DNA of 37,642 bases, from positions 1 to 37,642 of the IMG/VR virus record IMGVR_UViG_3300041403_001188; one strand, 5' to 3'. Position 1 is the stretch's first letter; every line of letters starts with the position of its first letter. The DNA is from a virus. Shown piece by piece: positions 627-22,537 of this stretch. The position numbers and the translations under genes were made by a program. The notes under the pieces were generated by a model. The model was given only the letters and a program-made list of their open reading frames with translations, did no database searches and had not been told where the DNA came from.

Positions 627-1481
627 TCATTTATTATTGTTTTTAATTTCATTAAAATATTCCCACTTAGGTGTGGATTTGGTTAATGATTCTTTATACC
701 ATAAATTACCGTATAATTGTGTCCGTTGTGTAAGTAAATGATTATATGTAGCTTTAACTGCATGTAATGTGGAGTCGCTAGGCGAAAATATTACAATAGA
801 ATTATTTTCAGTTTGCCTAAAAACAGTTTCACACCAATTCCAAGGAACCCAACATCTATCAACCTCTTTATTGTTTTTCCAGAATTCTTCAACATATTTA
901 AAGTCATTTACAAACTTCATATAGTGTGTATGATAATCTATCAGTTCAGTTTCTTCACCTGGGTTTATATTAACCATAAAAGTGGTGGCCTTTTTTCTTA
1001 TATCTGGATGAGGGCTTATTTCATAACCATCTAAATATTTTTGAATACCTGCATCTGCATTACATAGATTAATATCGATCTTAAATTTATCTGCAATAAT
1101 TTGATTAAATTCAGGCCCTATTAGATATTCATTTATTGAAGAAAGTAAAGGGTGTTGAAATGTAGTAAGTCTAAAAACCATTCCAAAACCTTCATTGCTT
1201 GTACTCTGTAAATGAGATACCTTTTTATCCTTGTGCCATTTTAAATATTCTTCTTTATTTGTAATGCAACCTGGGAAAGATATTATTTTATACCCTGATG
1301 ATAATATCCTATCAATAAGATCTCTATCATCTTTAGATTCCTTTAAATCAATTTGTGAGCATTTAACCAACTCTTCAAAATGTTCATTTGAAAAAAAGTT
1401 TTCTATGTATATATGATCAAATGGAAATTTTCTTATTTCTGCATTAGCAATTTTTTCAGTAAGATATTTAAAGTTATACAT
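627..1481 (-). CDS. 2-oxoglutarate/Fe(II)-dependent oxygenase-like protein
   Basis: This 284-residue protein shows the facial-triad pattern of 2OG-Fe(II) oxygenases. H158 and D160 sit in an HPD motif after a run of acidic and aromatic residues, the distal histidine is H240 in TLHAV, and R253 lies 13 residues later, where the family binds the 2-oxoglutarate carboxylate. FDHIYIENFFSNEHFEELVK near the N-terminus resembles the start of prolyl-4-hydroxylase-like proteins. Such enzymes hydroxylate proteins, sugars or lipids; the substrate cannot be read from the sequence. It lies inside the glycan cluster between gmd and kdsB, so a role in modifying a sugar or a glycosylated virion protein is possible but inferred. 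The start is ATG at 1481; I see no Shine-Dalgarno sequence. Confidence 0.7.
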   Translation of the reverse strand: MYNFKYLTEKIANAEIRKFPFDHIYIENFFSNEHFEELVKCSQIDLKESKDDRDLIDRILSSGYKIISFPGCITNKEEYLKWHKDKKVSHLQSTSNEGFGMVFRLTTFQHPLLSSINEYLIGPEFNQIIADKFKIDINLCNADAGIQKYLDGYEISPHPDIRKKATTFMVNINPGEETELIDYHTHYMKFVNDFKYVEEFWKNNKEVDRCWVPWNWCETVFRQTENNSIVIFSPSDSTLHAVKATYNHLLTQRTQLYGNLWYKESLTKSTPKWEYFNEIKNNNK

Positions 1482-1521
1482 TTCTTTTATGTGTTTTTAT
1501 TTTTTAAATAGGCAGGCAACA

Positions 1522-2514
1522 TTATCTCTCGGATACCTTTCCTTGTAAAACATCCATCCAATGATCACACATTTCATGTAACATTGATTCAAATGTATAT
1601 TCTGGTTTCCATCCTAAAGTTTCTCTAATCTTAGTAGAGTCACCCTTAAGATAAGGTAATTCTTCAGGTCTTAAAAATTTAGGATTTTGTACAACATAAT
1701 CTTTATAATCCAATCCTAAGTGAGTAAATACAATATCACACATCTCACGAACTGAATGGGTTTCCATTGTTGATACCACAAAGTCATCTGCTTCTTCATG
1801 ATTCATTATTGCATGCATGGCTTTTACATAATCTTTAGAATGACCCCAATCGCGGTAAGAATCCATATTACCCAATTCTAATTTGTCTTGTAAACCTAAT
1901 TTTATGGAGCATGCAGCTTTAACAACTTTATTAGTTACAAAATTACTTCCTCTTCTTGGGGACTCATGGTTAAATAAAATTCCATTGACTGCATGTAGTC
2001 CGTGTGCTCTTCGATAATGTCTAACAATATTATACCCAAATACTTTTGAACACCCATAAGGTGAAACAGGATTCATAACACTAGTCTCTCTTTGAAAACC
2101 ATCTTCTTCAACAGTTAATCCAAACATTTCAGAAGAACTTGCTTGATAGAATTTTGCATTAGGGCAAGTCCTACGATAGGCTTCTAAAATATTTAGAACA
2201 CCTAGTGCATTAGTCTGTACTGTATATTGAGGTACATCAAAGCTAATCCTAACATGAGACTGTGCAGCTATGTTATAGATTTCATCAGGTCGAATTTCAC
2301 TTAAGAGCCTTTCAATACTTCCTTGGTCTGTAAGATCACCGTAATGAGTATGAAGGTTACCTGCTCTATATGCTTTGTTTAGACGGGCGGATTGATTTTC
2401 TGCAGTTGAATTTCTCCTAACCATACCATGTACTTCATAACCTAATTCTAAAAGGTATTCAGCTAAGTACGATCCATCTTGACCGTTAATTCCAGTAATA
2501 AATGCTTTTTTCAT
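1522..2514 (-). CDS. gmd: GDP-mannose 4,6-dehydratase
   Basis: A 330-residue short-chain dehydrogenase/reductase that converts GDP-D-mannose to GDP-4-keto-6-deoxy-D-mannose, the precursor of GDP-fucose, GDP-rhamnose and GDP-perosamine. The NADP-binding motif TGINGQDGSYLAE is at residues 7-19. The catalytic set is SSSE (126-129) with Y153 and K157 in the YGCSK motif. The substrate loop FNHESPRRG is at 181-189 and RDWG at 221-224. The length is slightly shorter than bacterial Gmd (about 345-370). It lies 5 bp downstream of the aminotransferase-like gene, which could act on its product. No GDP-fucose synthase is visible in the window. Identity is very secure. Confidence 0.97.
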   Translation of the reverse strand: MKKAFITGINGQDGSYLAEYLLELGYEVHGMVRRNSTAENQSARLNKAYRAGNLHTHYGDLTDQGSIERLLSEIRPDEIYNIAAQSHVRISFDVPQYTVQTNALGVLNILEAYRRTCPNAKFYQASSSEMFGLTVEEDGFQRETSVMNPVSPYGCSKVFGYNIVRHYRRAHGLHAVNGILFNHESPRRGSNFVTNKVVKAACSIKLGLQDKLELGNMDSYRDWGHSKDYVKAMHAIMNHEEADDFVVSTMETHSVREMCDIVFTHLGLDYKDYVVQNPKFLRPEELPYLKGDSTKIRETLGWKPEYTFESMLHEMCDHWMDVLQGKVSER

Positions 2515-2519
2515 ATTGT

Positions 2520-3152
2520 TTATCTTGTTTGTAAATACGGATCAACTCCGCTAGGTTTATTAAATACTTTCATTTTTGTTAAATCTGGCCAATCGGTAAT
2601 CAACCATTTCTTAGGTTCGGTTTTTATAGCATCATCTAATTTATCTAATCCTAATTGAGCAGTTTCAGGTGTCATATAATAATGACACCCATAAGTATCA
2701 ATATCTTGGTCTCTCCATGGAATATTAGGTAAGCGACCGTCATAGGACATTTTCTTTAGATTAATTGCATCTTCTTTATTATCACATAAAATAATTCCAC
2801 CTCTACCTAAACTTAAATGTTTTTGATATTGGAAACTTATGCACATAAAAGAGCCTGGGATATAACTATTCTTTTTCCACAAAACTGCTGCATCATAAAT
2901 AGGTTTGAAATTATCGTTAACTTTATAATAGTCTTGCCAGTCTTCATCTCTCCACTCAAGAGCTATCTTTAATTTATTTGCAAGAAAAGGTACAGAGAGA
3001 TAGGTTCTTTTTGGAACTGAAATAGTTCCAATGTTTTGGTATCTTAAACAAAGTTCAATACCATGGGTACATGCATCTACTGCGATTGCATAAGGAGAAC
3101 CAAAAAACTCGGCTACCTTTTTTTCAAATTTGGTTACTACTTCAAAACTCAT
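2520..3152 (-). CDS. Minimal DegT/DnrJ/EryC1/StrS-type sugar aminotransferase
   Basis: A 210-residue protein with the core of the PLP-dependent sugar aminotransferase family. FEKKVAEFFGSPYAIAVDACTHGIEL (residues 9-34) matches the region where normal enzymes read VAVNSGTAAL. D87 in YDAAVL corresponds to the cofactor-contacting aspartate. K111 in FQYQKHLSLGRGGII corresponds to the Schiff-base lysine before the usual GEGG. MTPETAQLGLDKLDD matches the MSELQAAIG segment. Full family members have about 370-400 residues. This one lacks the first 40 or so residues, has a shortened middle and lacks the C-terminal small domain. It precedes gmd, whose product is the substrate of GDP-perosamine synthase, so amination of that keto-sugar is a reasonable guess. 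A binding-only protein is also possible. Confidence 0.75.
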   Translation of the reverse strand: MSFEVVTKFEKKVAEFFGSPYAIAVDACTHGIELCLRYQNIGTISVPKRTYLSVPFLANKLKIALEWRDEDWQDYYKVNDNFKPIYDAAVLWKKNSYIPGSFMCISFQYQKHLSLGRGGIILCDNKEDAINLKKMSYDGRLPNIPWRDQDIDTYGCHYYMTPETAQLGLDKLDDAIKTEPKKWLITDWPDLTKMKVFNKPSGVDPYLQTR

Positions 3153-3200
3153 AGATAACTTTACTATTTATTATTATATGTAATAATAGGAGATTGTTTA

Positions 3201-3623
3201 TTATAAGAATCGTTTCATTGCAATATTATTAACCGCAAATTCGTTCTTGGAATAAAATCCAATAAGTTCTTCTTTACAAAATAATGTTATTCTGTAACAG
3301 TCTTTGGATTTTGCAATTTTAACTAATTCTTCGATAAGTCTTACACCTACGTTCTTCCCTCTTATTTTCTTATCTACGACTATATCTTCAATATGACCGG
3401 CAGATTCACCTCTAATCTTGTTTTCTATAACAACACTACCATAAGCCACAATCTCATCTTCATATAATCCTACTATAGAATTAGCTGATGTATTAGAAAT
3501 GAATTTATTCCAACACTCTCCTAAATTCCTATCTGAATAATCTATTTCTGTTAGTTGCTGTAATAAAAGAAAAACTTTTTCTAAATCTTTTCTTTCTACT
3601 TTTCTAAATACTATTTTATTCAT
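3201..3623 (-). CDS. GNAT-family N-acetyltransferase, GNA1-like
   Basis: This 140-residue protein is a single GNAT domain. The acetyl-CoA site is GHIEDIVVDKKIRGKNVG (residues 76-93), close to the glucosamine-6-phosphate N-acetyltransferase (GNA1) version of motif A. A C-terminal strand-helix CYRITLFCKEELIGFYSKNEF (109-129) also matches that family. Known relatives acetylate amino sugars. The gene lies between the cupin gene (8-bp overlap, 3616-3623) and the sugar aminotransferase gene, so it plausibly acetylates an amino sugar made by this cluster. That substrate is inferred from neighbours only. The short AT-only palindrome at 3169-3188 lies between this gene's stop and the next start. Confidence 0.85.
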   Translation of the reverse strand: MNKIVFRKVERKDLEKVFLLLQQLTEIDYSDRNLGECWNKFISNTSANSIVGLYEDEIVAYGSVVIENKIRGESAGHIEDIVVDKKIRGKNVGVRLIEELVKIAKSKDCYRITLFCKEELIGFYSKNEFAVNNIAMKRFL

Positions 3624-4032
3624 CTAAAAATGTTTTATCCAATTTCTGCCCTTCATAAGGTCCTGTTTTGTATTCATAGACGATAGTATCATCTTCTAAA
3701 ATTTCATATGTATGTCCACCTTCTAAAGTAAACGAGGCATCACCTGGATATAAGATAGGTGTTGCTATAAGATTATCGTCAAGATCATAAAAATAACATT
3801 TCACTGAACCTTTTATAACTATCCATGATTCTTGAGCAATAACATCTCTAGTTCTATTTTTCCAAATATGCTTATGTGGCTTAAACGTTTTTCCCTTTTC
3901 CATCTTAAGTGTAGAACATTGTATAAAATGTTCTTCAGGAATAAGATCCTTTCTAGGCTCAGATATCTTATCTAATCTTTGGATTAAATGTAAAAGTTTA
4001 TCAGGATTAATCTTTGAATAAATAGTTTCCAT
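3616..4032 (-). CDS. Cupin-fold protein in sugar cluster
   Basis: A 138-residue single-domain cupin. Candidate metal ligands are H53 and H55 (KPHKH), E68 (QESW) and H107 (EGGHTYE), spaced as in cupin motifs 1 and 2. IVIKGSVKCYFYDLD and ILYPGDASFTLEGG give the two beta-strand blocks. Small cupins in O-antigen clusters include sugar epimerases and ketoisomerases (RmlC, FdtA) and WbuC-like proteins; I cannot assign it to one of these. Its stop overlaps the start of the acetyltransferase gene by 8 bp, implying translational coupling. A role in making or editing a nucleotide sugar is inferred. Confidence 0.7.
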   Translation of the reverse strand: METIYSKINPDKLLHLIQRLDKISEPRKDLIPEEHFIQCSTLKMEKGKTFKPHKHIWKNRTRDVIAQESWIVIKGSVKCYFYDLDDNLIATPILYPGDASFTLEGGHTYEILEDDTIVYEYKTGPYEGQKLDKTFLDE

Positions 4033-4046
4033 ATTTTATTATATGT

Positions 4047-4676
4047 TTATTTTTCTTTTTGTTTCCACCCTTCCCACACAAATTCAAAATCGTATTCTAG
4101 GTTAAAAGATTCGGATAAAGCTTCTCGTATCTTCTGTTTTCTTTCAACTGAATTTTCCATAAATGAATGAAATTGTATCTTTATATTAGAAAACTTACTT
4201 AATTCATTTTTTTCTATTAAATATTCCAGTAATGGAAATTCTTCTCCTTCAATATTTAGCTTAAGAAGATCAACAGATAATACATTATGAGTATGCATAA
4301 ATTCACTAATGTTTACTATTTCAACGGATTCAGTATTAAGATTACCTGAGATTAATGGATCACTACTGTCTCTATGAATAGAACTGCCATCATTACATAA
4401 TGCTATATCCGTTATATAACTTTTTGTACCTAAGCCTATGTTAAATACCTTTATCTTATCGTTATTTTTAAACTTTTCTTTAATAATATTGTAAAAATGT
4501 TTAACTGGTTCAAAGACATAAATTGTACAATTATACTTATCATAGATTTGTTCTGCCCACCCGCCAGCATATCCGCCTACGTCAAAAACTATTGAATCTT
4601 CAGATAAATTGCAATTTAAATTATGAGTGTAATCGCCACGTTCTTCATACCATCTTTTTAGTGCTTCTTTGTTCAT
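4047..4676 (-). CDS. FkbM-family methyltransferase
   Basis: This 209-residue protein has the S-adenosylmethionine motif VFDVGGYAGGWAEQIY (residues 30-45), the acidic end of the second strand VFEP (54-57), and the FkbM hallmark LLKLNIEGEE at 137-146. FkbM enzymes O-methylate sugars or polyketides. In phage and capsule gene clusters they usually methylate hydroxyl groups on glycans. Here it sits between a GT11 fucosyltransferase-like gene and the cupin gene, consistent with capping or decorating a sugar chain. The acceptor is unknown. The start at 4676 is the only ATG before motif I and leaves a normal N-terminal helix. Confidence 0.88.
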   Translation of the reverse strand: MNKEALKRWYEERGDYTHNLNCNLSEDSIVFDVGGYAGGWAEQIYDKYNCTIYVFEPVKHFYNIIKEKFKNNDKIKVFNIGLGTKSYITDIALCNDGSSIHRDSSDPLISGNLNTESVEIVNISEFMHTHNVLSVDLLKLNIEGEEFPLLEYLIEKNELSKFSNIKIQFHSFMENSVERKQKIREALSESFNLEYDFEFVWEGWKQKEK

Positions 4677-4705
4677 TATTGTATATTTTTAATTTGTATT
4701 TGTTG

Positions 4706-5485
4706 CTATATAGTTATCCATGAGTCAGGTATTATATCATTTTTCTTTTCGTAAGTAAACCATTGCTTAGGGCCAACAACCCTTTTATTAGAATTAGTAT
4801 TAAGATATGCACCCCACCATGAAAATGAAGAACTGCTTATGATATTATGAGTACATTTAGACTGTAAAAATAATTCTACATAATCTTTTTCATTTTCTAT
4901 GAAATGAAATTTATCTCCAACAAAATTTTCCTTACACCATTTTATGTCATCACTAAAGATTAAATACTTATCCACATCACCTACAATACCCATTCCTTTA
5001 TTAAAATAATCCATTTCTCTTATAGCATGTAAACCGTAATTTAAATAATCCCCTCGTCTTACATGTATAGAGCAAGTTACACCGTTTAGAATTTCTTTAT
5101 ATTTTTCCAATCGTTGATTTACAAAATCAGAAGGTTTAAATAATTCTAAAATGAAACTTCTATTAGGAAAATATTTTTCTGATTGAAAAAACCCATCATA
5201 TAAAGTATTATCGGTTATTTTAAAAGGTTCCCAATGGAAGGGAACATTAACTTTGCAAATAGGTGGTTTATTAATTTTATGCCACTTAAAATTATGAAAC
5301 ATTTCTAAGTATTCTTCTGCATGCTTAAGAGGAGGATTATGGACTGAATCATTATTTAATTTTTTAATCTGAGAGTCAACATTCCAATATCCTGTTTCAA
5401 ATCTATTCATTTTACCTTCATACTCAATAAAAGCAATCTGAAACATCATATTTCCAATACCTCCTTTTAGTCTACATGATATCAT
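4706..5485 (-). CDS. Glycosyltransferase family 11 (alpha-1,2-fucosyltransferase-like)
   Basis: A 259-residue GT11 protein. RLKGGIGNMMFQIAF (residues 5-19) is the family's N-terminal glycine-rich motif, HVRRGDY (141-147) is the highly conserved GDP-fucose site, YLIFSDDIKWCKENF (174-188) is motif II, and SSSFSWWGAYLN (218-229) is motif III. Members transfer fucose from GDP-fucose to galactose or related residues. The gene overlaps the GT25 gene by 4 bp (ATGA). Gmd, encoded downstream, makes the precursor of the donor sugar, but the second step (GDP-fucose synthase) is not in the window, so the donor may come from the host or be another 6-deoxy sugar. Confidence 0.9.
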   Translation of the reverse strand: MISCRLKGGIGNMMFQIAFIEYEGKMNRFETGYWNVDSQIKKLNNDSVHNPPLKHAEEYLEMFHNFKWHKINKPPICKVNVPFHWEPFKITDNTLYDGFFQSEKYFPNRSFILELFKPSDFVNQRLEKYKEILNGVTCSIHVRRGDYLNYGLHAIREMDYFNKGMGIVGDVDKYLIFSDDIKWCKENFVGDKFHFIENEKDYVELFLQSKCTHNIISSSSFSWWGAYLNTNSNKRVVGPKQWFTYEKKNDIIPDSWITI

Positions 5486-6156
5486 TTGATGTTATCTTTT
5501 TTCATCATATTAGAATAATCTCGATGTGCATTTTGAATATCACTATGACTAGCTCTTTGCCATGCAATGGGGAGGTGATATGCATATGTAGTAATATTCG
5601 GTTGTATATAAGCACCTAGATACGTATCAATCGGGCAATCAAAGTATGGTTTATTTTTTAATACAGTATCTAGTATCACATCATAAACAGTATTATTTAC
5701 TGCATAACACGTAGTAGTTATAATTCTTTTTGCTTTTACAAAATATTCATTAAATTTTTCAGGAATAAATTTACCGTTTTTAGTTTCATGCACTCCTCCA
5801 AAATATAATAAATCCCAGTCATCAGGTAGTGTTTCTATTGATTTTTCAAATATTTCATTTAAATTTTCAATAAAATCACAATCATCTTCAATAATTAAAA
5901 CATTCTTCCAACCGTTTTCTTTTGCTAATTGATATACTTCAGTGTGACTTGCTATACAACCCATAGCTCCATTCAATGAGGTTCTCTTTCCTGCGAAATT
6001 TTCACTATCCCAACCCATTGGATTACCATCAACTGCACTATATCTTTTTACTTTAATATTATGCTTAGAAAATTGTAATTGAGATTCTTCCCACCTATCT
6101 TTTCTCCGATCTAAATTAATACATATAATCTGATCAAAATAATCATTTAGTTTCAT
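5482..6156 (-). CDS. Glycosyltransferase family 25 (LPS-type beta-glycosyltransferase)
   Basis: A 224-residue GT25 domain. ICINLDRRKDRWEE (residues 11-24) is the family start motif, GAMGCIASHTEVY (63-75) is the conserved acceptor/donor motif, and VLIIEDDCDF (86-95) carries the acidic metal-site motif. ITTTCYAVN and PIDTYL occur further on, as in the family. GT25 proteins add galactose or glucose to lipooligosaccharide or to hydroxylysine in proteins. The start ATG (6154-6156) is directly preceded by TATAAATA. It is 2 bp downstream of the fusion glycosyltransferase gene and overlaps the GT11 gene by 4 bp, so the three are probably co-translated. Confidence 0.9.
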   Translation of the reverse strand: MKLNDYFDQIICINLDRRKDRWEESQLQFSKHNIKVKRYSAVDGNPMGWDSENFAGKRTSLNGAMGCIASHTEVYQLAKENGWKNVLIIEDDCDFIENLNEIFEKSIETLPDDWDLLYFGGVHETKNGKFIPEKFNEYFVKAKRIITTTCYAVNNTVYDVILDTVLKNKPYFDCPIDTYLGAYIQPNITTYAYHLPIAWQRASHSDIQNAHRDYSNMMKKDNIK

Positions 6157-6158
6157 AT

Positions 6159-7607
6159 TTATACTTTATTTCTTAGTTTTCTACTTGCTTGAAAATGTTC
6201 AATAACCGGGTTAATGTTAGGATACATAGCTCTCATGCTATCAAATATCATAGTGTATTCTGGTGGAAGGTTACCGTCTTTAACCTTTCCTTCTCTCCGC
6301 ATATCTTCAATAACCTTACCTAGATTCCACTGTTCAAACGTTTTTGCACCTGGCCCTTCGGAAACATTAACACCTTCCCATCTTTTACACAGTTCTCTAG
6401 TTGCTTGATTGTTTGCCATAAATATAGTTCCACTCAAACATTCATTTTTTCTCCATCTAAAATCTTGCCACCTAACAGCAATATCATACGGATAATTATC
6501 AAAAAGGATTGGGTATTGGTGTATTACTGCATCACTATCAACATATACAAGATTTTTACCTTTATGTTTATCTAGCATATCCTGCATAAATCTAGCTTTA
6601 AATCTGGTATTTGCTTGCCAATTACCTAAATTCTCTACACCTACAATATCATAAGACACTTTAAGTTTATCTAATGAAGCTTTTAGTTTATTTGCTTCTT
6701 GTTCATAAGGAGTATTTATTGTGTAATATGCTACTATAATAAAGTTAGATTTACTTTTAGTTTCTTTCCTTGGTATTTCCATAACCTTTCTTAAATTTAT
6801 TTGTGGAATATAAGTTTCAAGTGGAGATGATGTAATAGTTTTTATGATAGGCTTTCTCTTATTGATAGAATATAGTCGCATAGCAGACATAAGAACATTT
6901 TTATAGTCTACTATTTTGGACTTAAGATTACTCTTATCACCGTACCATGAATGAAAATGAGATTCTCCACCTTTTCCTAAACCTAAATCAAATCCAATTA
7001 AATAGACTTCTTCATAGCCTAATAGTAAACCTAATTGAATTGCAGAAAATCCACTATTGTTACCGTTGATGAAAGAGTCTATATTTTTTCCAAATCCTAT
7101 AGGATCAGTATCAACTTTTGATGTTATGACTTTAGTAAACTTATTTAAATGCTCGTATTTAAAATTATGACGAGTATCAGTAACAATTCCATCTATTTCT
7201 TTAAGGTTAGGATTATTTTCTTTAAGAATAAAAAAGCTTTCACCGGTAATTTTACGATTAATTGAATCTATAGTGCTAACACCTTTGGATAAGTAACTAT
7301 AGTCTAAAGTTACAAAGTGAGTAGGATTAGGAACAACCTCAACAGCAGCATTAACGCAAAGAGTATCCTCGTCTTTAAGAAGAGATAAGTCTAAAGTTTT
7401 AATTGAAGGGCCACCTGCAATAATGAACAGTCTATTAGAATTTCTTTTAGGTAAGATAAATTTAGTAAACTTATCTGTGATAGGTTTTACATTCTGTACC
7501 CTAGATTTAATAGGCCTAATAGTTTTCTTTGGTTGCCTACTAACACCAGATGTTTTTTCAACTTCTCTAGGTTTAATTAAAATTTTAGGGATTCTTCTCT
7601 TTCTCAC
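6159..7607 (-). CDS. Two-domain protein: DUF115/MptE-like Rossmann domain fused to a nucleotide-diphospho-sugar transferase
   Basis: A 482-residue protein with two recognisable halves. Residues 1-55 are a basic, proline-rich linker. Residues 58-225 resemble DUF115 and related proteins: FIIAGGPSIKTLDL (61-74), a run ending in CVNAAVEVVPNPTHFVTLDY, then NSGFSAIQLGLLLGYEEVYL (184-203) and GFDLG. Residues 288-480 form a GT-A-like domain with FIIVAYYT, a basic acceptor region (FKARFMQDML) and the metal-site motif LVYVDSDAV (353-361; DSD at 357-359). The initiation codon is GTG (no ATG occurs in the first 230 codons), with no clear Shine-Dalgarno sequence. It is the first gene of the glycan unit. 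The DUF115 half could make or transfer an unusual sugar and the second half could transfer it; the chemistry of both is unproven. Confidence 0.65.
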   Translation of the reverse strand: MRKRRIPKILIKPREVEKTSGVSRQPKKTIRPIKSRVQNVKPITDKFTKFILPKRNSNRLFIIAGGPSIKTLDLSLLKDEDTLCVNAAVEVVPNPTHFVTLDYSYLSKGVSTIDSINRKITGESFFILKENNPNLKEIDGIVTDTRHNFKYEHLNKFTKVITSKVDTDPIGFGKNIDSFINGNNSGFSAIQLGLLLGYEEVYLIGFDLGLGKGGESHFHSWYGDKSNLKSKIVDYKNVLMSAMRLYSINKRKPIIKTITSSPLETYIPQINLRKVMEIPRKETKSKSNFIIVAYYTINTPYEQEANKLKASLDKLKVSYDIVGVENLGNWQANTRFKARFMQDMLDKHKGKNLVYVDSDAVIHQYPILFDNYPYDIAVRWQDFRWRKNECLSGTIFMANNQATRELCKRWEGVNVSEGPGAKTFEQWNLGKVIEDMRREGKVKDGNLPPEYTMIFDSMRAMYPNINPVIEHFQASRKLRNKV

Positions 7608-7623
7608 CTGTAGGTATTTATTT

Positions 7624-7631
7624 TATTTATA
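7624..7631 (-). promoter_or_regulatory. TATAAATA box before the glycan unit (possible late promoter)
   Basis: On the minus strand an exact TATAAATA, the T4 late-promoter consensus, lies 16 nt before the GTG at 7607 and just after the terminator hairpin at 7641-7664. That position is right for the start of a new transcription unit. The same octamer also lies so close to other starts (6156, 10377, 13499) that it may instead be part of an A/T-rich translation-initiation region. Confidence 0.4.
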
Positions 7632-7636
7632 CGACT

Positions 7637-7664
7637 AAAAAAGGGGAGGGCTTCCCCTCCCCTT
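7637..7664 (-). terminator. Rho-independent terminator after the Hsp20 unit
   Basis: A perfect 10-bp stem (arms 7641-7650 and 7655-7664, AAGGGGAGGG with its complement) has a 4-nt loop. On the minus strand it is followed by a T-run at 7642-7637. It lies 24 bp past the stop of the small acidic-protein gene and separates it from the glycan unit. Confidence 0.93.
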
Positions 7665-7687
7665 AATAATCTAAGAAGTAAGTCTAA

Positions 7688-7915
7688 TTAAACTTTTGCA
7701 ATCACAGGTTCGGTTGCAGCTTCTTCATTAACCACAGGGTCTGCTTCAGTTTCAGTTTCTTCTGTTGGTGGTACAAAAACTTTAATAGCCTTTGATACTA
7801 ATTCAGCATCCTCCAGTGTAAATGCTCCTTTTGCTTGTGCAATTCTTGCAGCTTGAATAAGAACGTTTACTGCTTGTCCTTGATTCATTTCTTCTGTTTT
7901 GTTTTCAGTACTCAT
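7688..7915 (-). CDS. Small acidic hypothetical protein
   Basis: A 75-residue protein of unknown function. The middle (about residues 14-50, AVNVLIQAARIAQAKGAF followed by TLEDAELVSKAIKVFV) looks like a compact helical unit. The tail from residue 51 is rich in Glu, Thr, Pro and Ala (PPTEETETEADPVVNEEAA) and is probably disordered. No membrane segment, cysteine or catalytic motif is seen. It follows the Hsp20 gene by 46 bp and is the last gene before the terminator at 7641-7664, so the two are likely co-transcribed. Confidence 0.75.
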   Translation of the reverse strand: MSTENKTEEMNQGQAVNVLIQAARIAQAKGAFTLEDAELVSKAIKVFVPPTEETETEADPVVNEEAATEPVIAKV

Positions 7916-7961
7916 GATTTAAATCGATTTTATTATTATATACAATTTCTTAGATTTAGTT

Positions 7962-8315
7962 TCAGAGTACTTCAACAATTTTTTCGGCATCTTCCCTAGT
8001 TGGAATGTTTACAGTAAGAACACCATTTTCAACAGTTGCTTTAATCTTCTTTGTATCGGATTCTTCCGGTAAGATGAAGGTTTTATCAAAGGGTGTAAGC
8101 CACTTAGTTTCTACATCTGTTTTAATGTTAAGACGCCCTTTTACTATTTTTACTGAAAGGTCCTTCTTACCTAAACCAGGCACAGACATTTCCAAAAGAT
8201 AACCATCATCAGTTTTTTCTGAATGGTATCCCTTAAAAGTTGTTGTTACGTTATCCAATTCATCCCAAATTGAATCGTCAAAAATTGATTTGAAAGGTTT
8301 TGTTGTTAAAAACAT
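7962..8315 (-). CDS. Hsp20/alpha-crystallin small heat-shock chaperone
   Basis: This 117-residue protein is an alpha-crystallin domain. GYLLEMSVPGLGKKDLSVKI (residues 38-57) matches the conserved start of the domain. KTFILPEESDTKKIKATVENG ends in the hallmark A-x-x-x-N-G-V-L pattern (ATVENGVLTVNIP). Small Hsps hold unfolding proteins in an ATP-independent way. T4-like phages of several bacterial groups carry them, and they are thought to help folding during virion production. It is the first gene after the terminator at 8374-8408, so it needs its own promoter in 8316-8373; I cannot point to an exact box there. Confidence 0.95.
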   Translation of the reverse strand: MFLTTKPFKSIFDDSIWDELDNVTTTFKGYHSEKTDDGYLLEMSVPGLGKKDLSVKIVKGRLNIKTDVETKWLTPFDKTFILPEESDTKKIKATVENGVLTVNIPTREDAEKIVEVL

Positions 8316-8373
8316 AATTTAAATTTTTTTAAGTTAAACATTTTAGGGTTTCCCCTATTTGTTTAATATACTG

Positions 8374-8408
8374 AAAAAACCGTGCCAAAGTTAATTTTAG
8401 CACGGTTT
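8374..8408 (-). terminator. Rho-independent terminator after the lysis/nuclease unit
   Basis: A 9-bp perfect stem (8377-8385, AAACCGTGC, with 8400-8408) surrounds a 14-nt loop. On the minus strand it runs into six Ts (8379-8374, three shared with the stem). It lies 43 bp beyond the stop of the nuclease gene. Confidence 0.88.
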
Positions 8409-8451
8409 CTACAAAACTTGTCATGGTTTACTTTAACTTAGTGTCATACTG

Positions 8452-8838
8452 TCATTTAAACTCTTTTCTTTTGCCACCATCATATTCATGAGCATGACCT
8501 TCAGTAATAAGAGTTTGGTTTACATTTACAACATTCCCATCTTTATCCATAATGAATAGCTCAGCTAGTACCCTACCGTATTTACCTTCTCCGTATGATT
8601 TAATTCTAAAGAATCCTGGTTTTGAACTAACCTCAGTTAAGAGTTCTTTAACCCTAGCTTTTGCTGCTAGCCCTAAAGCTTTTTCTTCAAGGTTTCGTGT
8701 ACGGCTTTCCCATGCATTCATTCCTTTGAATCTTATTCTTCTCTTAATCCAAATATCAAACCCAACATCAATCATTGCATCAACAGTATCACCATCAATT
8801 ACACGATCCAATTTTGCTCTGTAAATATACTTTTCCAT
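8452..8838 (-). CDS. Staphylococcal-nuclease-like (SNase) endonuclease
   Basis: A 128-residue SNase/thermonuclease domain. VIDGDTVDA (residues 13-21) supplies the calcium-binding D17, the first arginine of the active site is R36 in IRFKGMNAWE, E44 matches the general-base glutamate, and R89 in KYGRVLAEL matches the second catalytic arginine. The position of staphylococcal D40 is N41 here, a change in a metal ligand that may alter activity. There is no signal peptide, so it acts inside the cell or is released at lysis. Its start overlaps the stop of the endolysin gene (TAATG at 8836-8840). Host-DNA breakdown or DNA repair are plausible roles; neither is proven. Confidence 0.9.
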   Translation of the reverse strand: MEKYIYRAKLDRVIDGDTVDAMIDVGFDIWIKRRIRFKGMNAWESRTRNLEEKALGLAAKARVKELLTEVSSKPGFFRIKSYGEGKYGRVLAELFIMDKDGNVVNVNQTLITEGHAHEYDGGKRKEFK

Positions 8839-9713
8839 TATAGACTAGTTAACATATCCATTAATTCAGGTTGTGGGAACATATCCACTTTAGTTTTACG
8901 AACATTGGTGTGAGTCCATAACCCTTTATGTTTTCCTTCCAAAACTTCTTGGTTAAATTCAAAGGCATCAGCACCCTTTTCTTTAATAAGAGCAGGGAGA
9001 CCAGCTCTTACATCAATGTTATCCCTTTCACCAACCCAAAGTGCCCAATCTCTTAGAACTTCAATTTGCTTATCAGAATAACGGTGCCATGTAGAATAAC
9101 CTCTAAAAGGTTTAGATAAAACAACTATTTGGCTAGAATCAACTCTTGTACCTGCATATGTTTTTCCATCTTTCACCCATCCAAAATTATTTACTTCAAT
9201 ACCAACAGAGTTTTTATGCATGTGACTTCTTCCAGTTCCTAAGTGCCAACCCCAACCGCCTTGCGGCATACATTGTACTAGAACACCATCATAACGATCA
9301 TCATTTCCTCTAACAGATTGACCACCTAAAACAAATTCTGTAGCAACCTTTCCTCTGCTATCACCTGCCCAATGCTCAATTGTTTTGTATGGATTATGCC
9401 AACCTGCAGTGTGATGAAAAAATACATATTCAGGTTTACTTCCTGTCATATACTCATCTTCTGGTAAATAATGTTTATGAATTACTAATCCATTTTCCAA
9501 CGATTCAGTAAGTTCCGAATTATCAGTACTAGCAAGACCCATAGCATTCCAAGTGGCAGGGCCAACAATACCATCAACCACCAATTGGTTTTCATGTTGC
9601 CATTCACAAACTTTGTTATGTGTCTTCGGACCAAATATACCATCTGCATAGATACCTAAAAACTTTTGTATTTCTTTAACTTCTATTCCATGAGATCCTT
9701 GTTTTAAAATCAT
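8838..9713 (-). CDS. Endolysin: peptidoglycan-binding domain plus N-acetylmuramoyl-L-alanine amidase
   Basis: A 291-residue lysis enzyme. Residues 3-60 are a PG_binding_1 repeat (GSHGIEVKEIQKFLG, then the repeated ADGIFGPKT and VDGIVGPATW). Residues 93-285 are an Amidase_2/PGRP domain: FFHHTAG with H100 and H101, WHLGTGRSH, NSVGIEVNNFG, and WTHTNVRKTKVDMFP, where H268 and D277 complete the expected zinc site. It cleaves the amide between muramic acid and L-alanine in peptidoglycan. No signal peptide is seen, so a holin would be needed; the two-TM coiled-coil protein just upstream is one possible candidate, without direct evidence. The ATG at 9713 follows an A/T-rich block with several AATAAATA-like copies. 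Confidence 0.95.
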   Translation of the reverse strand: MILKQGSHGIEVKEIQKFLGIYADGIFGPKTHNKVCEWQHENQLVVDGIVGPATWNAMGLASTDNSELTESLENGLVIHKHYLPEDEYMTGSKPEYVFFHHTAGWHNPYKTIEHWAGDSRGKVATEFVLGGQSVRGNDDRYDGVLVQCMPQGGWGWHLGTGRSHMHKNSVGIEVNNFGWVKDGKTYAGTRVDSSQIVVLSKPFRGYSTWHRYSDKQIEVLRDWALWVGERDNIDVRAGLPALIKEKGADAFEFNQEVLEGKHKGLWTHTNVRKTKVDMFPQPELMDMLTSL

Positions 9714-9765: not shown

Positions 9766-10377
9766 TTATTCGTTATTTTTTTCAGATGCATACTTAACAC
9801 CCATAATTGTTCCAACGATAGAGAATGCATTAGTAAGAAGTATACCAAACATATTAGACCATGTGGATCCAATGATCTGCGTTTCCTTATCGTTTATGAT
9901 AGCTAAACCATACATAACTGTTGTAAGTATACCTACACCTATTATAACAAAGAGAGCAACCTTTACAATTGTACCTATTAATTCAAATTGAGATTTCTTT
10001 TGCATTAAATCTAAATCACCTAATGCAGTTTCCATTGCCTTTTCAGCTTCTGCTCTAGCAACCACAGCTTCCTTTTCAGCAACACGAGCTTCTTCGGCCG
10101 CAGTGCTTGCTTCATCTAACGCTTTTGATAGTTGTTTGTTTATTCTTTCATTTTCAACAGCAGCTGCCTCAAGTTGTTTATTCTGTTCTTGGACTTGCTT
10201 GGTTATCTGTAATCTTTTTCTCCTAGCAGTAGTATCTTTTTGTTTTGCAATCTTAAGATATTCTTTGAATTCGGAATTAGAAGACTTAAGTATTTTTAGA
10301 ATGTTACCCTCAAGATAGATCTTTTTGCTCTTAACAAGAGAGATAAAGAGGCTTTCTATTTCTTTTCCTAACTCCAT
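9766..10377 (-). CDS. Coiled-coil protein with two C-terminal membrane segments
   Basis: A 203-residue protein of unknown function. Residues 48-130 form a long, charged coiled coil rich in Ala, Glu, Lys and Gln. Two hydrophobic segments follow, about 134-161 and 175-196, with a short loop between and a charged tail. The layout resembles a membrane-anchored spacer or scaffold. It directly follows the response-regulator gene (6 bp between stop and start), in the same unit as the histidine kinase, so it could be the output or accessory part of that signalling pair. It also precedes the endolysin, so a holin or spanin-like role cannot be excluded, although the long coil is unlike a simple holin. 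Confidence 0.8.
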   Translation of the reverse strand: MELGKEIESLFISLVKSKKIYLEGNILKILKSSNSEFKEYLKIAKQKDTTARRKRLQITKQVQEQNKQLEAAAVENERINKQLSKALDEASTAAEEARVAEKEAVVARAEAEKAMETALGDLDLMQKKSQFELIGTIVKVALFVIIGVGILTTVMYGLAIINDKETQIIGSTWSNMFGILLTNAFSIVGTIMGVKYASEKNNE

Positions 10378-10383
10378 ATAGAT

Positions 10384-10821
10384 TTATTTATATATCTTAA
10401 AAGGTGCAGTATGGCTCTTGTACCCTTCATAGTCTTTCTTAAACTCTTCCAATCTAGGTTCAATGTCATCTGATTTAATTATCCAAAACTGGGCACCGAC
10501 AGCTTTAGCCTTTTCTATTTCAGTCTTGTCTTGTGAGGATGAGATGATTCCAATCACACAACCGTTTCCATATTCATGGTTAATTTTTCTAATCATCTCA
10601 ATTCCATCAAATGAAGATCCAATAATATTAAGATCAACAAATACACATTCAGGTCTTTCGTGATCTGGGTCATCAGGGAACCATTTTTTAAAGAGCTTGT
10701 CCGCCTCGTCTGAACTGTCCAAAGCTTCTATTGAAAGAGCCATGTCCAAAAGTGAACATGCATCTTCAAATACCAAGTGGAATAAGTTCTCATCATCAAT
10801 AAGCATTAATGTATCAATCAT
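10384..10821 (-). CDS. Stand-alone response regulator receiver domain
   Basis: A 145-residue protein that is only a receiver domain. The acidic pocket is D9/D10 in LMLIDDEN, the phospho-acceptor is D63 in CVFVDLNI, the switch Ser/Thr is in GIISSSQD (93-98), and the conserved lysine is K116 in WIIKSDD. No DNA-binding or enzymatic output domain follows (the protein ends at KIYK), so it must act through protein contacts, as CheY- or Spo0F-type proteins do. It overlaps the histidine-kinase gene by 8 bp, a strong sign that the two form a cognate pair. The loop at 47-58 (FPDDPDHERPEC) is longer than in CheY. Confidence 0.92.
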   Translation of the reverse strand: MIDTLMLIDDENLFHLVFEDACSLLDMALSIEALDSSDEADKLFKKWFPDDPDHERPECVFVDLNIIGSSFDGIEMIRKINHEYGNGCVIGIISSSQDKTEIEKAKAVGAQFWIIKSDDIEPRLEEFKKDYEGYKSHTAPFKIYK

Positions 10822-11707
10822 CAGTAAGTTTTATTTTTAGTTTTGATCCTTTTTCTAATTTTTCGCAGGTTATTTTAAACCCGTGTTCTTTTAATATTGC
10901 TATACATATATTTAATCCTAGTCCTGTACCTTCTTCTTTTTGGTCGCTTTTTCTGGTATAAGGTTTAGACAATTCAATAAATTCTTCAGGTGTCATACCT
11001 CTACCATTATCCTCAACACAGATAAAGTTATCTTCAAGATATATCTTTACATATTTTGTTGGGCTGTCATTATACTTTAAACCATTTCTAATTAAATTAT
11101 CCAGTGCTGTACAAAACAAAGGTTCATTTAACTCTAATTCGGTATTAAGATTATCATTGATAATAACCTGGTTCTTATATGCAGTTAGCTTTAGATAGTC
11201 ATTTAGAATTTCTTTAATATTTACCGCCCCCATTGACATTTGAGCATTTTGCTTTACTAGGTTGGTGAATTCATATACGCCTGAATAAACTTTTTGTGCA
11301 TGGTGGAGTCCATCCTCAATAAGCCTAAGAGGTGAATGGATTTTTAGTTCTTTTATTTGATCATTATCCAGTCTTCTCTTTAATGATTTAATACCTCTAG
11401 GTAAATAAGTATTAATTCCACTATGCATATCATGTCTAATAATTTTTGCAGCGTGCTCAAGATAAATGTTTTTCTTATCAAGGTCTTTAATTATGAATGC
11501 TTTTTGTTTAAGAAATTCTCTAATAACAATGAAAAACGGTGGCATAAAGGCAATGACACACCCATAACCGAATTCAGCCAATTCGTATGATGCTTCGCAA
11601 ATACCAAAAACTATACAGGTTTGTACTACAAAGAATGTAAGCATAATTAAACCTGCAATAAGTAAAGATATCCTGCTACCTTTTGATATGCCTGCCAATG
11701 CCCCCAT
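10814..11707 (-). CDS. Membrane sensor histidine kinase
   Basis: A 297-residue kinase. Two hydrophobic segments (about 14-37 and 47-64) with a very short loop leave almost nothing outside the membrane. The likely phospho-acceptor is H92 in IIRHDMHSGI. The HATPase_c domain has the N box ALDNLIRNGLKY (201-212), G1 VEDNGRGM (231-238), an F-box-like KPYTRK and G2 GTGLGLNIC (260-268). All ATP-binding motifs are intact. It starts inside the stop of the DUF2892-like gene (TAATG) and overlaps the response-regulator gene. Sensing must occur in the membrane, through the small partner proteins, or in the cytoplasm. Function in infection is unknown. Confidence 0.92.
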   Translation of the reverse strand: MGALAGISKGSRISLLIAGLIMLTFFVVQTCIVFGICEASYELAEFGYGCVIAFMPPFFIVIREFLKQKAFIIKDLDKKNIYLEHAAKIIRHDMHSGINTYLPRGIKSLKRRLDNDQIKELKIHSPLRLIEDGLHHAQKVYSGVYEFTNLVKQNAQMSMGAVNIKEILNDYLKLTAYKNQVIINDNLNTELELNEPLFCTALDNLIRNGLKYNDSPTKYVKIYLEDNFICVEDNGRGMTPEEFIELSKPYTRKSDQKEEGTGLGLNICIAILKEHGFKITCEKLEKGSKLKIKLTDD

Positions 11708-11895
11708 TAGAGTTCGCTCTTTTTTAGTCCTAGTTTTTCAAACAACCATTTACTTGGGCAAAACTTAGTCCAGGTACCAATTTGTAACATAACTATTACA
11801 AAAAGAATAACTCCCCAGCTTTCCAAAATTAAACCAGTTGCTAACACAACTGACATAAGCAGATATACTGCTCTTACTGATGTCCACTTTTTCAT
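11707..11895 (-). CDS. Small DUF2892-like membrane protein
   Basis: A 62-residue protein with two membrane helices (about 8-25 and 27-42) followed by TWTKFCPSKWLFEKLGL. That C-terminal pattern of Cys-Pro after the second helix and a short amphipathic end fits the DUF2892/YgaP-type inner-membrane family. The family's role is poorly known. Its stop codon overlaps the histidine-kinase start (TAATG, 11705-11709), so it is translationally coupled to the kinase and may be its membrane sensor or stabiliser; that is inferred. It is the first secure gene after the terminator at 11930-11983. Confidence 0.7.
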   Translation of the reverse strand: MKKWTSVRAVYLLMSVVLATGLILESWGVILFVIVMLQIGTWTKFCPSKWLFEKLGLKKSEL

Positions 11896-11908: not shown

Positions 11909-12028
11909 TTAGTGCATTGAGATTGAGATAAAAAAAGCTACCTTTAAACGGATCCATACTCGTCTCCAAAAAGGTAGCTTTTTAAATTCCTCGAGCTCAA
12001 AAATATCTTCTGGCTCTTTAATTTCCAT
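11909..12028 (-). CDS. Possible 39-residue protein overlapping a terminator
   Basis: An ATG at 12028 opens a 39-codon frame ending at TAA 11909-11911. The product has an acidic N-terminal third (EIKEPEDIFELEE), then a basic, tryptophan-containing middle (FKKLPFWRRVWIRLKVAFF) and a short hydrophobic end. The charge layout looks like a real small peptide that could bind the membrane surface. The two arms of the strong 14-bp hairpin at 11932-11983 lie inside the frame, encoding FKKLPF and KVAFF. If the hairpin works as a terminator, the full message would often not be completed. I recognise no family. Confidence 0.42.
   Translation of the reverse strand: MEIKEPEDIFELEEFKKLPFWRRVWIRLKVAFFISISMH
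11930..11983 (-). terminator. Strong bidirectional terminator-like hairpin after phoH
   Basis: A perfect 14-bp stem (11932-11945, AAAAAGCTACCTTT, with 11970-11983) has a 24-nt loop and runs into seven Ts on the minus strand (11936-11930). The other strand also ends in Ts, so it could stop transcription both ways. It closes the long unit that runs from the promoter at 17321-17354 to phoH. Confidence 0.85.
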
Positions 12029-21192: not shown

Positions 21193-22536
21193 TTACTTAA
21201 TTGCTTTCTTTAATGCTTCTAAATCAGAGAGATACATATCTTTAGGATCGGTACCTTCAATAACTTTCTTTTCCTTTTTCTTATCTGCTTCTTGATTTAA
21301 CAATTCATTAAACCTTTCCTTGGTTAATGAATAGATAGGCATATTTAAAAGATAGTTGTATGAACCATCCACCTCATCATAATTAGCAGTTTCTAAATAA
21401 AGAATAATATCCTTTTTTGGTACATTATTTACTTTAAGTTTACCATCAATAATATCTTTAATGAATCTTGCCTTATTGGAAATGATAAGTAATTCTCTTT
21501 CTAATTTTGCAATTAAATAAGCCTTTCTTTTATCATACCATACTAACCTTACTTCTACAAAATGTTTAACAATTTCTTCTACCTTATTAAAGATTTTTAA
21601 TTTACCGGTTTCATCTATAGTGGTAAGGTTTTCAGTTTCTTGAGTATTAAGTTTTAGTAAAGCCTCAAGTTTATCTTTAGTTATGTATTCTTTAAGAATT
21701 GCTCTTTGGAATTTAATTACATATTCTACCTTTCCTGAAGAATTATCATCATAGCTTGTAATGATTCTTTTTTCAATTAGATTATTTAAATGTTCTTCAT
21801 ACCTTTCATAAGTAAATCCTGGGGGTATTTCAGATACCTTGACTGTTGTGGTGTTTAGCACCTCATGTACACCACTTATTTTCCATGTTTTAGGATTAAC
21901 TGTATCTCTAGTAAAAGTGCCTGAGAACTCCTTTAACCAAGGTGGAAGTCCAGGTAGTCTTTTACCTTTTAGTACGGCGATACATGCATCAGTAACATCC
22001 TTAGGATTTCGATTTAATATATTAGTTGCAAACCCTACAGCAATACCAGAAGAACCGTTTAAGATAACTGTTGGTATGATAGGTAGGAAATACTCAGGTT
22101 CAATTTTCTCACCTTCTTCAATCTTATTTTCTAATAATTCAAAATCCTTATAGAGAAGTCTAAAGTTAGGATGGAGTTTACCACTGATGTATCGTGGCGC
22201 ACCAGCAGAAGGAGATCTTAAAGATCCAAATTGGCCAATACCTTCCAATAAAGGTAAAGAATTTTTAAACTCTTGTGCCATACCAACCATCGCAGATTCT
22301 AATGAAGTATTACCGTGATGATAATATGCTTCAGCTGCTACTCTACCGGCAAGTTGAAAAAGCTTCATTGGTTTTTCATTTCCACTTTTCCATATTTTAT
22401 TTGCAATGTGGACAACCTTTCTTTGTGTAGGTTTTAACCCATCAATGCAACTTGGAATTGCCCGGTTTTCTACAACATACTTAGCATATTCTAGATACTC
22501 TTTATCAAAAAAATCTGTTACTGTTCTTCTACTCAT
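21193..22536 (-). CDS. 52: T4-type DNA topoisomerase II, medium subunit (gp52/GyrA-like)
   Basis: A 447-residue breakage-and-reunion subunit. RTVTDFFDKEYLEYAKYVVE (4-23) and IDGLKPTQRKVVHIANKIW (31-49) are the GyrA/ParC start. The catalytic tyrosine is Y116 in AGAPRYISGKLHP, and IIPTVILNGSSGIAVGFATN (about 151-170) follows as in type IIA enzymes. There is no C-terminal DNA-wrapping domain, as in T4 gp52. I start at ATG 22536; the longer frame begins with TTG at 22572 inside gp39. The stop of gp39 (TAA 22538-22540) and this ATG are arranged TAA-T-ATG. With gp39 it forms the phage topoisomerase for replication. Confidence 0.95.
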   Translation of the reverse strand: MSRRTVTDFFDKEYLEYAKYVVENRAIPSCIDGLKPTQRKVVHIANKIWKSGNEKPMKLFQLAGRVAAEAYYHHGNTSLESAMVGMAQEFKNSLPLLEGIGQFGSLRSPSAGAPRYISGKLHPNFRLLYKDFELLENKIEEGEKIEPEYFLPIIPTVILNGSSGIAVGFATNILNRNPKDVTDACIAVLKGKRLPGLPPWLKEFSGTFTRDTVNPKTWKISGVHEVLNTTTVKVSEIPPGFTYERYEEHLNNLIEKRIITSYDDNSSGKVEYVIKFQRAILKEYITKDKLEALLKLNTQETENLTTIDETGKLKIFNKVEEIVKHFVEVRLVWYDKRKAYLIAKLERELLIISNKARFIKDIIDGKLKVNNVPKKDIILYLETANYDEVDGSYNYLLNMPIYSLTKERFNELLNQEADKKKEKKVIEGTDPKDMYLSDLEALKKAIK

Positions 22537-22537
22537 A

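Follow-up and report, generated by a model that had tools for sequence, protein, structure and literature searches.

The 37,642-nucleotide virus record IMGVR_UViG_3300041403_001188, called the window below when its whole length is meant, encodes a two-component signalling cassette on its minus strand at positions 9766-11895. It is established that the core of this cassette, a histidine kinase, a stand-alone receiver and a coiled-coil membrane protein, is a conserved, selected and phage-resident set whose sensors vary. We read it as a two-component system owned by the phage and provided with its own membrane output, for which control of lysis is the leading, still unproven function; the probability that we attach to this reading is about 0.5. 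In the window the three genes are preceded by that of a small membrane protein, in the following order.

11895-11707, minus strand: small membrane protein, 62 amino acids (aa); an open reading frame (ORF) related to YgaP-like TM (PF11127); accessory
11707-10814, minus strand: sensor histidine kinase, 297 aa; membrane two-helix hairpin, its own DHp type with H92, HATPase_c
10821-10384, minus strand: stand-alone receiver, 145 aa; D9/D10/D63/S94/K116 and a short extra C-terminal strand
10377-9766, minus strand: coiled-coil membrane protein, 203 aa; proposed output protein

The first-pass annotation had described these four genes with an endolysin gene next to them. This arrangement stands, and the same gene order recurs in nearly all relatives examined. 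The kinase and receiver genes overlap by 8 bases, and the small gene is coupled to the kinase gene by a TAATG junction, in which the last A of its TAA is the first A of the kinase ATG; both details, noted at first sight, are borne out by the ORF coordinates.

Distribution and conservation of the cassette

Relatives were sought in IMG/VR contigs: the kinase found 126 and the receiver 186, while more divergent receivers as queries found 283 and, in another scan, 503 of 508 candidate stretches, the sets overlapping. Later counts rest on the best 80 of each IMG/VR scan. The collection holds 171 phage loci with distinct receiver DNA, including locus L136 and excluding locus L137, and the window was added to it for the residue rows. 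Cassette contigs reach 430 kb. Whole-contig searches covered 49 contigs longer than 60 kb, many of them fragments and at least four others of that size being left out (L160, L164, L225 and L227), and a T4-type Gp23 capsid gene scored above cut-off in 18 of the 49. The window itself carries myovirus tail genes. The nearest match of its tail sheath is a huge uncultured phage, and Flavobacterium and Tenacibaculum phages are among the next rows, which makes a Bacteroidota host likely.

The receiver found no match at E≤0.01 in 50,697 phage records, in a search that may have omitted records very near the window. The coiled-coil protein had no match in the phage records either, and the kinase search returned four records, matched through the ATPase domain only (26-27% of the query). 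With the L137 receiver as query, 72,556 plasmids gave no match at E≤1e-5. Among 84,980 species genomes of bacteria and archaea, one scan found two loci only, L136 and L137, and L136 reads as a phage contig within its bin, with PhoH-like and terminase-like ORFs (named by eye).

Among the first 135 loci, window included, the kinase was detected in 135, the receiver in 131, the coiled-coil protein in 130, the small protein in 120 and a window-like endolysin in 36. Best-segment identity of the receiver to the window copy is 81-96% in 125 of the 130 other loci and 68-70% in five (L045, L052, L054, L062 and L080); the corresponding ranges are 54-76% for the kinase and 44-65% for the coiled-coil protein. 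The median dN/dS, taken over pairs with pS of 0.2-0.6, is 0.093 for the receiver, 0.213 for the kinase, 0.252 for the coiled-coil protein and 0.26 for the small protein. Of the 156 loci with enough flank, 151 have a kinase of this DHp type whose end lies no more than 300 bases upstream of the receiver, and the kinase stop overlaps or abuts the receiver start, as placed from the profile match, in 91 of these 151. Four of the five remaining loci have their kinase further upstream, and the fifth is L198, described below. All 157 loci with sufficient downstream sequence have the coiled-coil gene after the receiver, 152 of them by the distance limit that was set and five by inspection; in L143 and L245 it is found some 1.5-1.7 kb further downstream, two other ORFs intervening in L143.

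A reading as decayed or passenger genes was rejected on account of dN/dS values well below 1 and invariant catalytic residues. Kinases and receivers are bacterial proteins by origin, and the cassette could be a host system that was captured recently and is carried without a role in the phage. Purifying selection and hundreds of viral copies argue against such a capture, as does the fact that the species genomes yielded two loci only, of which one looks like a phage contig. We disfavour this explanation as highly improbable.

The expectation that all four genes are conserved together was correct for the kinase, the receiver and the coiled-coil protein but failed for the small protein, which was detected in 119 of 134 first-round loci (window excluded) and in only 7 of the 133 loci L140-L272. 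Its DUF2892-like label fits the relatives better than the window copy, which has no Pfam match at E≤1: PF11127 (YgaP-like_TM), presumably the former DUF2892, is matched by 14 of 29 relatives at E≤0.1, the best at 2.3e-5. DUF4395 is matched by 8 of the 29 (best 0.0011) and Phage_holin_2_2 by 4 (best 0.0025), the window copy not being among the latter. The subclade of the window has the small DUF2892-type protein as an accessory, and the core comprises one or more kinases, the receiver and the coiled-coil membrane protein.

Receiver

The receiver matches Response_reg in Pfam (1.4e-7). As first described, it has no output domain: its 145 residues form a single receiver fold, and the structural model (pLDDT 91.9, pTM 0.86) places D63 at the end of strand 3 and ends in a short strand. 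D9, D10 and D63 are present in 172 of 172 rows, S94 in 171 of 171 and K116 in 170 of 170. In a fold search against the PDB the EutV receiver came best (3.4e-7); stand-alone receivers were matched at about 6e-7 to 2e-5, among them the phytochrome response regulators RPA3017, DrRR, RcpA and Rcp1, and also CheY. The nearest natural PDB sequence is 3ilh, annotated merely as a two component response regulator, and two PDB profile matches to designed proteins were set aside as uninformative.

Across 38 diverse rows, 67 of the 145 positions are invariant. Helix 1 is invariant at 11 of 13 positions and the edge formed by strand 5 and helix 5 is also highly conserved, while helices 2 and 4 are the least conserved of the helices. 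In canonical receivers, helix 1 forms the kinase-binding face and the strand 5-helix 5 edge the output face. Conservation on both faces is what would be expected of a protein with fixed partners.

Kinase core and its varied inputs

The kinase matches HATPase_c in Pfam (6e-16), with the N, G1 and G2 boxes present, and sensor kinases in a PDB profile search (1.2e-13). No Pfam HisKA match was obtained for the window kinase; its phospho-acceptor region is of a distinct conserved type, RHDMHSGIN, which carries H92. H92 is found in 152 of 152 rows and N204 in 151 of 152. The G1 residues D233, G235 and G237 and two of the G2 glycines are present in 152 of 152, and the third G2 glycine, G260, in 138 of 151. 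An intact kinase-receiver pair, which had been singled out as unusual in a phage, is thereby confirmed: the HATPase_c domain, the H92 helix and the D/D/D/S/K set of the receiver are all present, and the catalytic residues are conserved.

The inputs differ widely. In the window the kinase input consists of a two-helix membrane hairpin only. A PAS domain is inserted right after the hairpin in the kinases of L068 and L070; the kinases of L160, L186 and L223 carry GAF and PAS domains, and some other kinases lack the hairpin. Twenty-two loci have two kinases, which were classed by profile and a simple hydropathy rule. On this basis the first kinase is of the hairpin type in 14, soluble in 7 and of another kind in 1, and in 12 loci the second has two hydrophobic stretches that flank a large, putatively periplasmic part, in 6 it has a single stretch and in 4 a hairpin. 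The description of a kinase with almost no extracellular part is thus accurate for the window but not for the family, in which second kinases often have a putative periplasmic domain. Between its two kinases L145 encodes a protein of 205 aa (3327-3944) whose start resembles a signal peptide and which matches nothing in Pfam; this protein may act in the periplasm as a partner of the second kinase, the one with a periplasmic domain.

Changes of input were counted on a quick tree of 99 rows, built from the receiver and the kinase core, the root of which is not known. A long input region, defined as more than 80 residues of any kind (PAS, GAF or periplasmic) before the DHp, was gained or lost at least 12 times, and the second kinase changed at least three times. 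Since such varied inputs are combined with a single receiver type, several kinds of signal converge on one receiver and hence, probably, on one output.

Coiled-coil membrane protein as candidate partner of the receiver

The third core protein is composed of a conserved N-terminal region (approximately residues 1-75), a long coiled coil and a two-helix membrane hairpin with the motif STWSNxFGILLTNxFSIxGTIMGVKYA, the second helix of the hairpin being almost invariant. Its model (pLDDT 88.9, pTM 0.43) has a helix from 35 to 161, a turn and a helix from 167 to 201. The predicted long coiled coil and two-helix hairpin agree with the initial description of a coiled-coil protein with two membrane helices after the receiver.

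Two readings were considered and rejected. The coiled-coil protein is not taken for a holin, since the window copy has no PHROG holin match and a separate holin-type cluster occurs within 4 kb in 47 of 171 loci; one of 39 relatives matches Phage_holin_9, weakly (0.005). Nor does the cassette belong to a known anti-phage defence system: a PADLOC scan of six proteins gave just a weak coiled-coil match (0.0039).

The first-pass annotation had the receiver signalling to unspecified host or phage proteins. This can be narrowed down, as the adjoining coiled-coil membrane protein, a constant neighbour of the receiver in loci with enough flank, is the likelier target; position and conservation point to it as the most likely partner, which the receiver would bind. 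The bacterial contig L137 bears on the question. At 5709-9090 it encodes a three-PAS kinase with the same DHp type, a receiver with 63% identity and a third protein of 349 aa. The first 75 or so residues of the latter match the N-terminus of the phage coiled-coil proteins (E 4.8e-24 with a model excluding L137), and in place of the membrane hairpin the protein has HisKA and HATPase_c, HisKA scoring 25.4 bits, just below the Pfam cut-off. Within the N-terminal region, 11 positions are invariant across 28 rows. Because this region comes directly after a receiver of the same kind in both cases, while the output module attached to it differs, it is likely to be the receiver-responsive part of the protein. 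Other bacterial copies of the region were sought in overlapping draws at the levels of phylum (1 of 395), class (1 of 395), family (1 of 295) and genus (1 of 62), and the single hit was always G026, the genome of L137 itself. L137 and a viral row are grouped together on the 99-row tree (97 SH-aLRT, root not known). A transfer from phage to bacterium is therefore possible, by which a phage signalling set would have been turned to bacterial use.

Two other assignments of roles have to be weighed here. The receiver may chiefly target two-component proteins or other targets of the host, acting as a phosphate sink or a hijacking device, while the membrane protein has a separate function. The very high conservation of the receiver could mirror that of a host partner, and there is a precedent in phage phiCDHM1, whose kinase comes without a receiver of its own in the available text (PMC3901668). 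This view leaves aside, however, that no locus with sufficient flank lacks the coiled-coil gene downstream of its receiver and that L137 keeps the same N-terminal region in this place with another output module, and we consider it unlikely.

Alternatively, the coiled-coil membrane protein would be an extra input or a scaffold for the kinase-receiver pair, the true output lying elsewhere in the phage or the host. The protein has no recognised catalytic domain, and long coiled coils often pass signals toward kinases. However, the kinases carry varied sensors of their own, and in L137 the N-terminus and coiled coil precede HisKA-HATPase within one protein, as an input precedes an output. The latter argument is softened if the second kinase of L137 itself feeds the receiver. 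On balance such a role appears distinctly improbable, and an output role of the coiled-coil protein is retained below.

Association with lysis genes

The features of the window that surround the cassette are the following.

9713-8838, minus strand: endolysin, 291 aa; PG_binding_1 and Amidase_2 (Pfam)
11922-11990, both strands: strong, bidirectional terminator-like hairpin; RNA fold -23.8 kcal/mol, z -4.6 on the minus strand and -5.2 on the plus strand
7664-7641, minus strand: terminator-like hairpin, the next on the cassette strand outside the cassette genes

The endolysin gene begins 52 bases past the coiled-coil gene on the same strand. The hairpin at 11922-11990 separates the cassette from an upstream PhoH-like ORF (named by eye), which suggests that the cassette begins its own transcription unit there. 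Between the endolysin and the hairpin at 7664-7641 lie three ORFs, one nuclease-like and one Hsp20-like by eye and one small. As no nearer terminator is met on this strand, if a weaker terminator-like site inside the small membrane gene (11854-11833) is ignored, the cassette and the endolysin may be co-transcribed as one unit. The terminator scan found 6 sites against 2.0 expected from shuffles; a sigma-70 promoter scan did no better than shuffles (19 found, 20.3 expected).

Across the family, with neighbour clusters named from one representative each, a lysis-type gene lies within 4 kb of the cassette in 90 of the 171 loci. The clusters are an endolysin (64 loci), a holin whose representative matches PF05105 (47), an M15 endolysin (10) and a PHROG of unknown function with a weaker endolysin match (20), and without the last the count is 88. 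Where both flanks extend for 4 kb or more, a lysis-type gene is present in 33 of 69 loci. A whole-contig search for PF01471, independent of the neighbour clusters, placed this family above cut-off in 33 of the 49 large contigs and within 6 kb of the cassette in 16 of these 33, compared with 4.0 expected for random cassette positions; none of 20,000 draws reached 16. When five near-duplicate contigs were removed, the figures were 12 of 28 and 3.44 expected, again with 0 of 20,000 draws. Lysis-type clusters were also found in the flanks of 11 of 20 contigs (197,026 bases) and in none of 20 stretches (340,020 bases) taken from those contigs as controls, a comparison that is biased, the models having been built from cassette neighbours. 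The link of the cassette to lysis genes is real but partial.

Several observations weigh against lysis control through the coiled-coil protein. The idea that the cassette times lysis, put forward in the first-pass annotation, gains from the enrichment near lysis-type genes, but 81 of the 171 loci have none of the four clusters within 4 kb, and in one basal group of the tree a lysis-type gene accompanies only 1 of 12 viral loci. PF01471 is more than 6 kb away in 17 of 33 contigs and above cut-off nowhere in 16 of 49, the PF05105 holin was found in just 2 of the 49, and the bias of the flank comparison has been mentioned. As to the output protein, it is anatomy alone, as predicted, that speaks for a membrane effector: the pTM of its model is 0.43, no PDB match was obtained at E≤0.001, and among viral models the single match at that threshold was the uncharacterised A0A6J5PRT3. 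The fusion argument comes from one bacterial genome. Finally, L198 (5998-7115, on a 242-kb contig) has the receiver and the coiled-coil protein, but the 6 kb upstream contain no kinase of the cassette type; this receiver is possibly driven by a distant or host kinase.

The same signalling chain could also serve another end, its membrane output protecting the infected cell from superinfection or envelope stress in the manner of the exclusion proteins Imm and Sp. The output is a membrane protein whose two membrane helices are joined by a very short turn, the putative periplasmic sensors of the second kinases would suit the sensing of secondary adsorption, and about half of the loci, and 11 of 12 viral loci in the basal group, have no recognised lysis gene nearby. 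Set against this is the enrichment beside endolysins and holins, and the Pfam and PHROGs listings contain no match to any named family of exclusion proteins. We regard exclusion as rather unlikely, and lysis control remains the preferred function.

Other genes recur near the cassette. Two clusters of small membrane proteins, whose representatives have no Pfam match, occur in 52 and 18 of the 171 loci (for example L121 4896-5150 and L034 10074-10421); in the comparison of flanks with controls the first was found in 4 of 20 against 0 of 20 and the second in 2 of 20 against 1 of 20. A DnaK-like gene (by eye) is near the cassette in 14 of 171 loci, for example L168 10148-12025; the flank comparison found it in 5 of 20 flanks and in none of the 20 controls. 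Elsewhere in the window, ORFs at 627-7607 resemble a dehydratase, an aminotransferase, a methyltransferase and a glycosyltransferase, reminiscent of a set for sugar or surface modification, and two adjoining ORFs at 21193-24415 resemble both subunits of a type II topoisomerase, all judged by eye from the translations.

Proposed mechanism

In the scheme that we favour, the kinase would read the state of the membrane, the cytoplasm or the periplasm, with an input that differs between phages. It would autophosphorylate on H92 and pass the phosphate to D63 of the receiver. The latter, having no DNA-binding domain, would bind the N-terminal cytoplasmic region of the adjoining coiled-coil membrane protein, and binding would be relayed along the coiled coil to the membrane hairpin. 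The hairpin would most likely advance or delay membrane permeabilisation, and so lysis, by acting on or with the holin and endolysin apparatus of the phage. We have fair confidence that phosphate is transferred and that the receiver signals into the coiled-coil protein; that the membrane output governs lysis, and in which direction, is less certain. A wider picture, which falls somewhat short of an even chance, is that of lytic, T4-like large phages, probably of Bacteroidota, in which swappable PAS/GAF, membrane and periplasmic sensors on one or two kinases feed a near-invariant receiver and, through it, a phage membrane protein that decides when or whether the cell is lysed.

Comparison with known systems

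The cassette resembles bacterial two-component systems with a single-domain regulator of the Rcp1/CheY type in its H-N-G1-G2 kinase and the D/D/D/S/K set of its receiver. It differs from them in being encoded by phages, in having its own DHp type without a Pfam HisKA match, and in its fixed third gene for a coiled-coil membrane protein and its one or two kinases per receiver.

Among published phages, the closest case that we found, judging from the available text, is the Clostridium difficile phage phiCDHM1, which carries agrDBC with the agrC kinase and in which no response regulator was found (PMC3901668). It shares with the window a phage histidine kinase and, by implication of the same text, an endolysin gene beside the cassette, whereas the window has a kinase, a receiver and a membrane partner. 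In uncultivated marine pelagiphages, histidine kinases, sometimes two, precede curli genes (PMC9599517); unlike in the window, their partners are thus curli secretion genes, and no receiver is reported in the available part of that paper. In T4 lysis inhibition the antiholins RI and RIII block the holin T in response to secondary adsorption, which is signalled perhaps by DNA in the periplasm (PMC6832632). The likeness to our scheme is one of function, with no claim of homology: both concern T4-like phages, in which a signal from the envelope or periplasm controls, or in our scheme would control, permeabilisation and thereby the release of endolysin. According to the available text, T4 acts by direct protein binding, with phosphotransfer not mentioned (PMC6832632), whereas the proposed cassette uses phosphotransfer. 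The T, RI and RIII families are absent from the Pfam and PHROGs listings of the four cassette proteins, to which this search was confined among the window genes.

No paper on a kinase-receiver-coiled-coil cassette was found among the open-licence papers listed, supplements lying outside the search. The available portions of PMC9723584 and PMC7824862 describe no kinase-receiver pair; the latter ties a divergent Rec domain to NAD systems and states that it never occurs in histidine-kinase systems. The main text of PMC7162821 makes no mention of histidine kinase, two-component, response regulator or sensor.

Significance

Phage decisions are known to be made through repressors, peptides and antiholins. 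The cassette genes can serve as markers for a large group of uncultured phages that is lacking from the phage records searched. Signal, switch and output can be studied one at a time in this small, defined gene set, which offers a route to what a phage senses inside the infected cell. If the proposal is true, the cassette would be a counterpart of T4 lysis inhibition run by a phosphorelay, and a complete, widely kept two-component circuit, owned by the phage and combining swappable sensors with its own membrane output, would add a new layer to phage decision-making.

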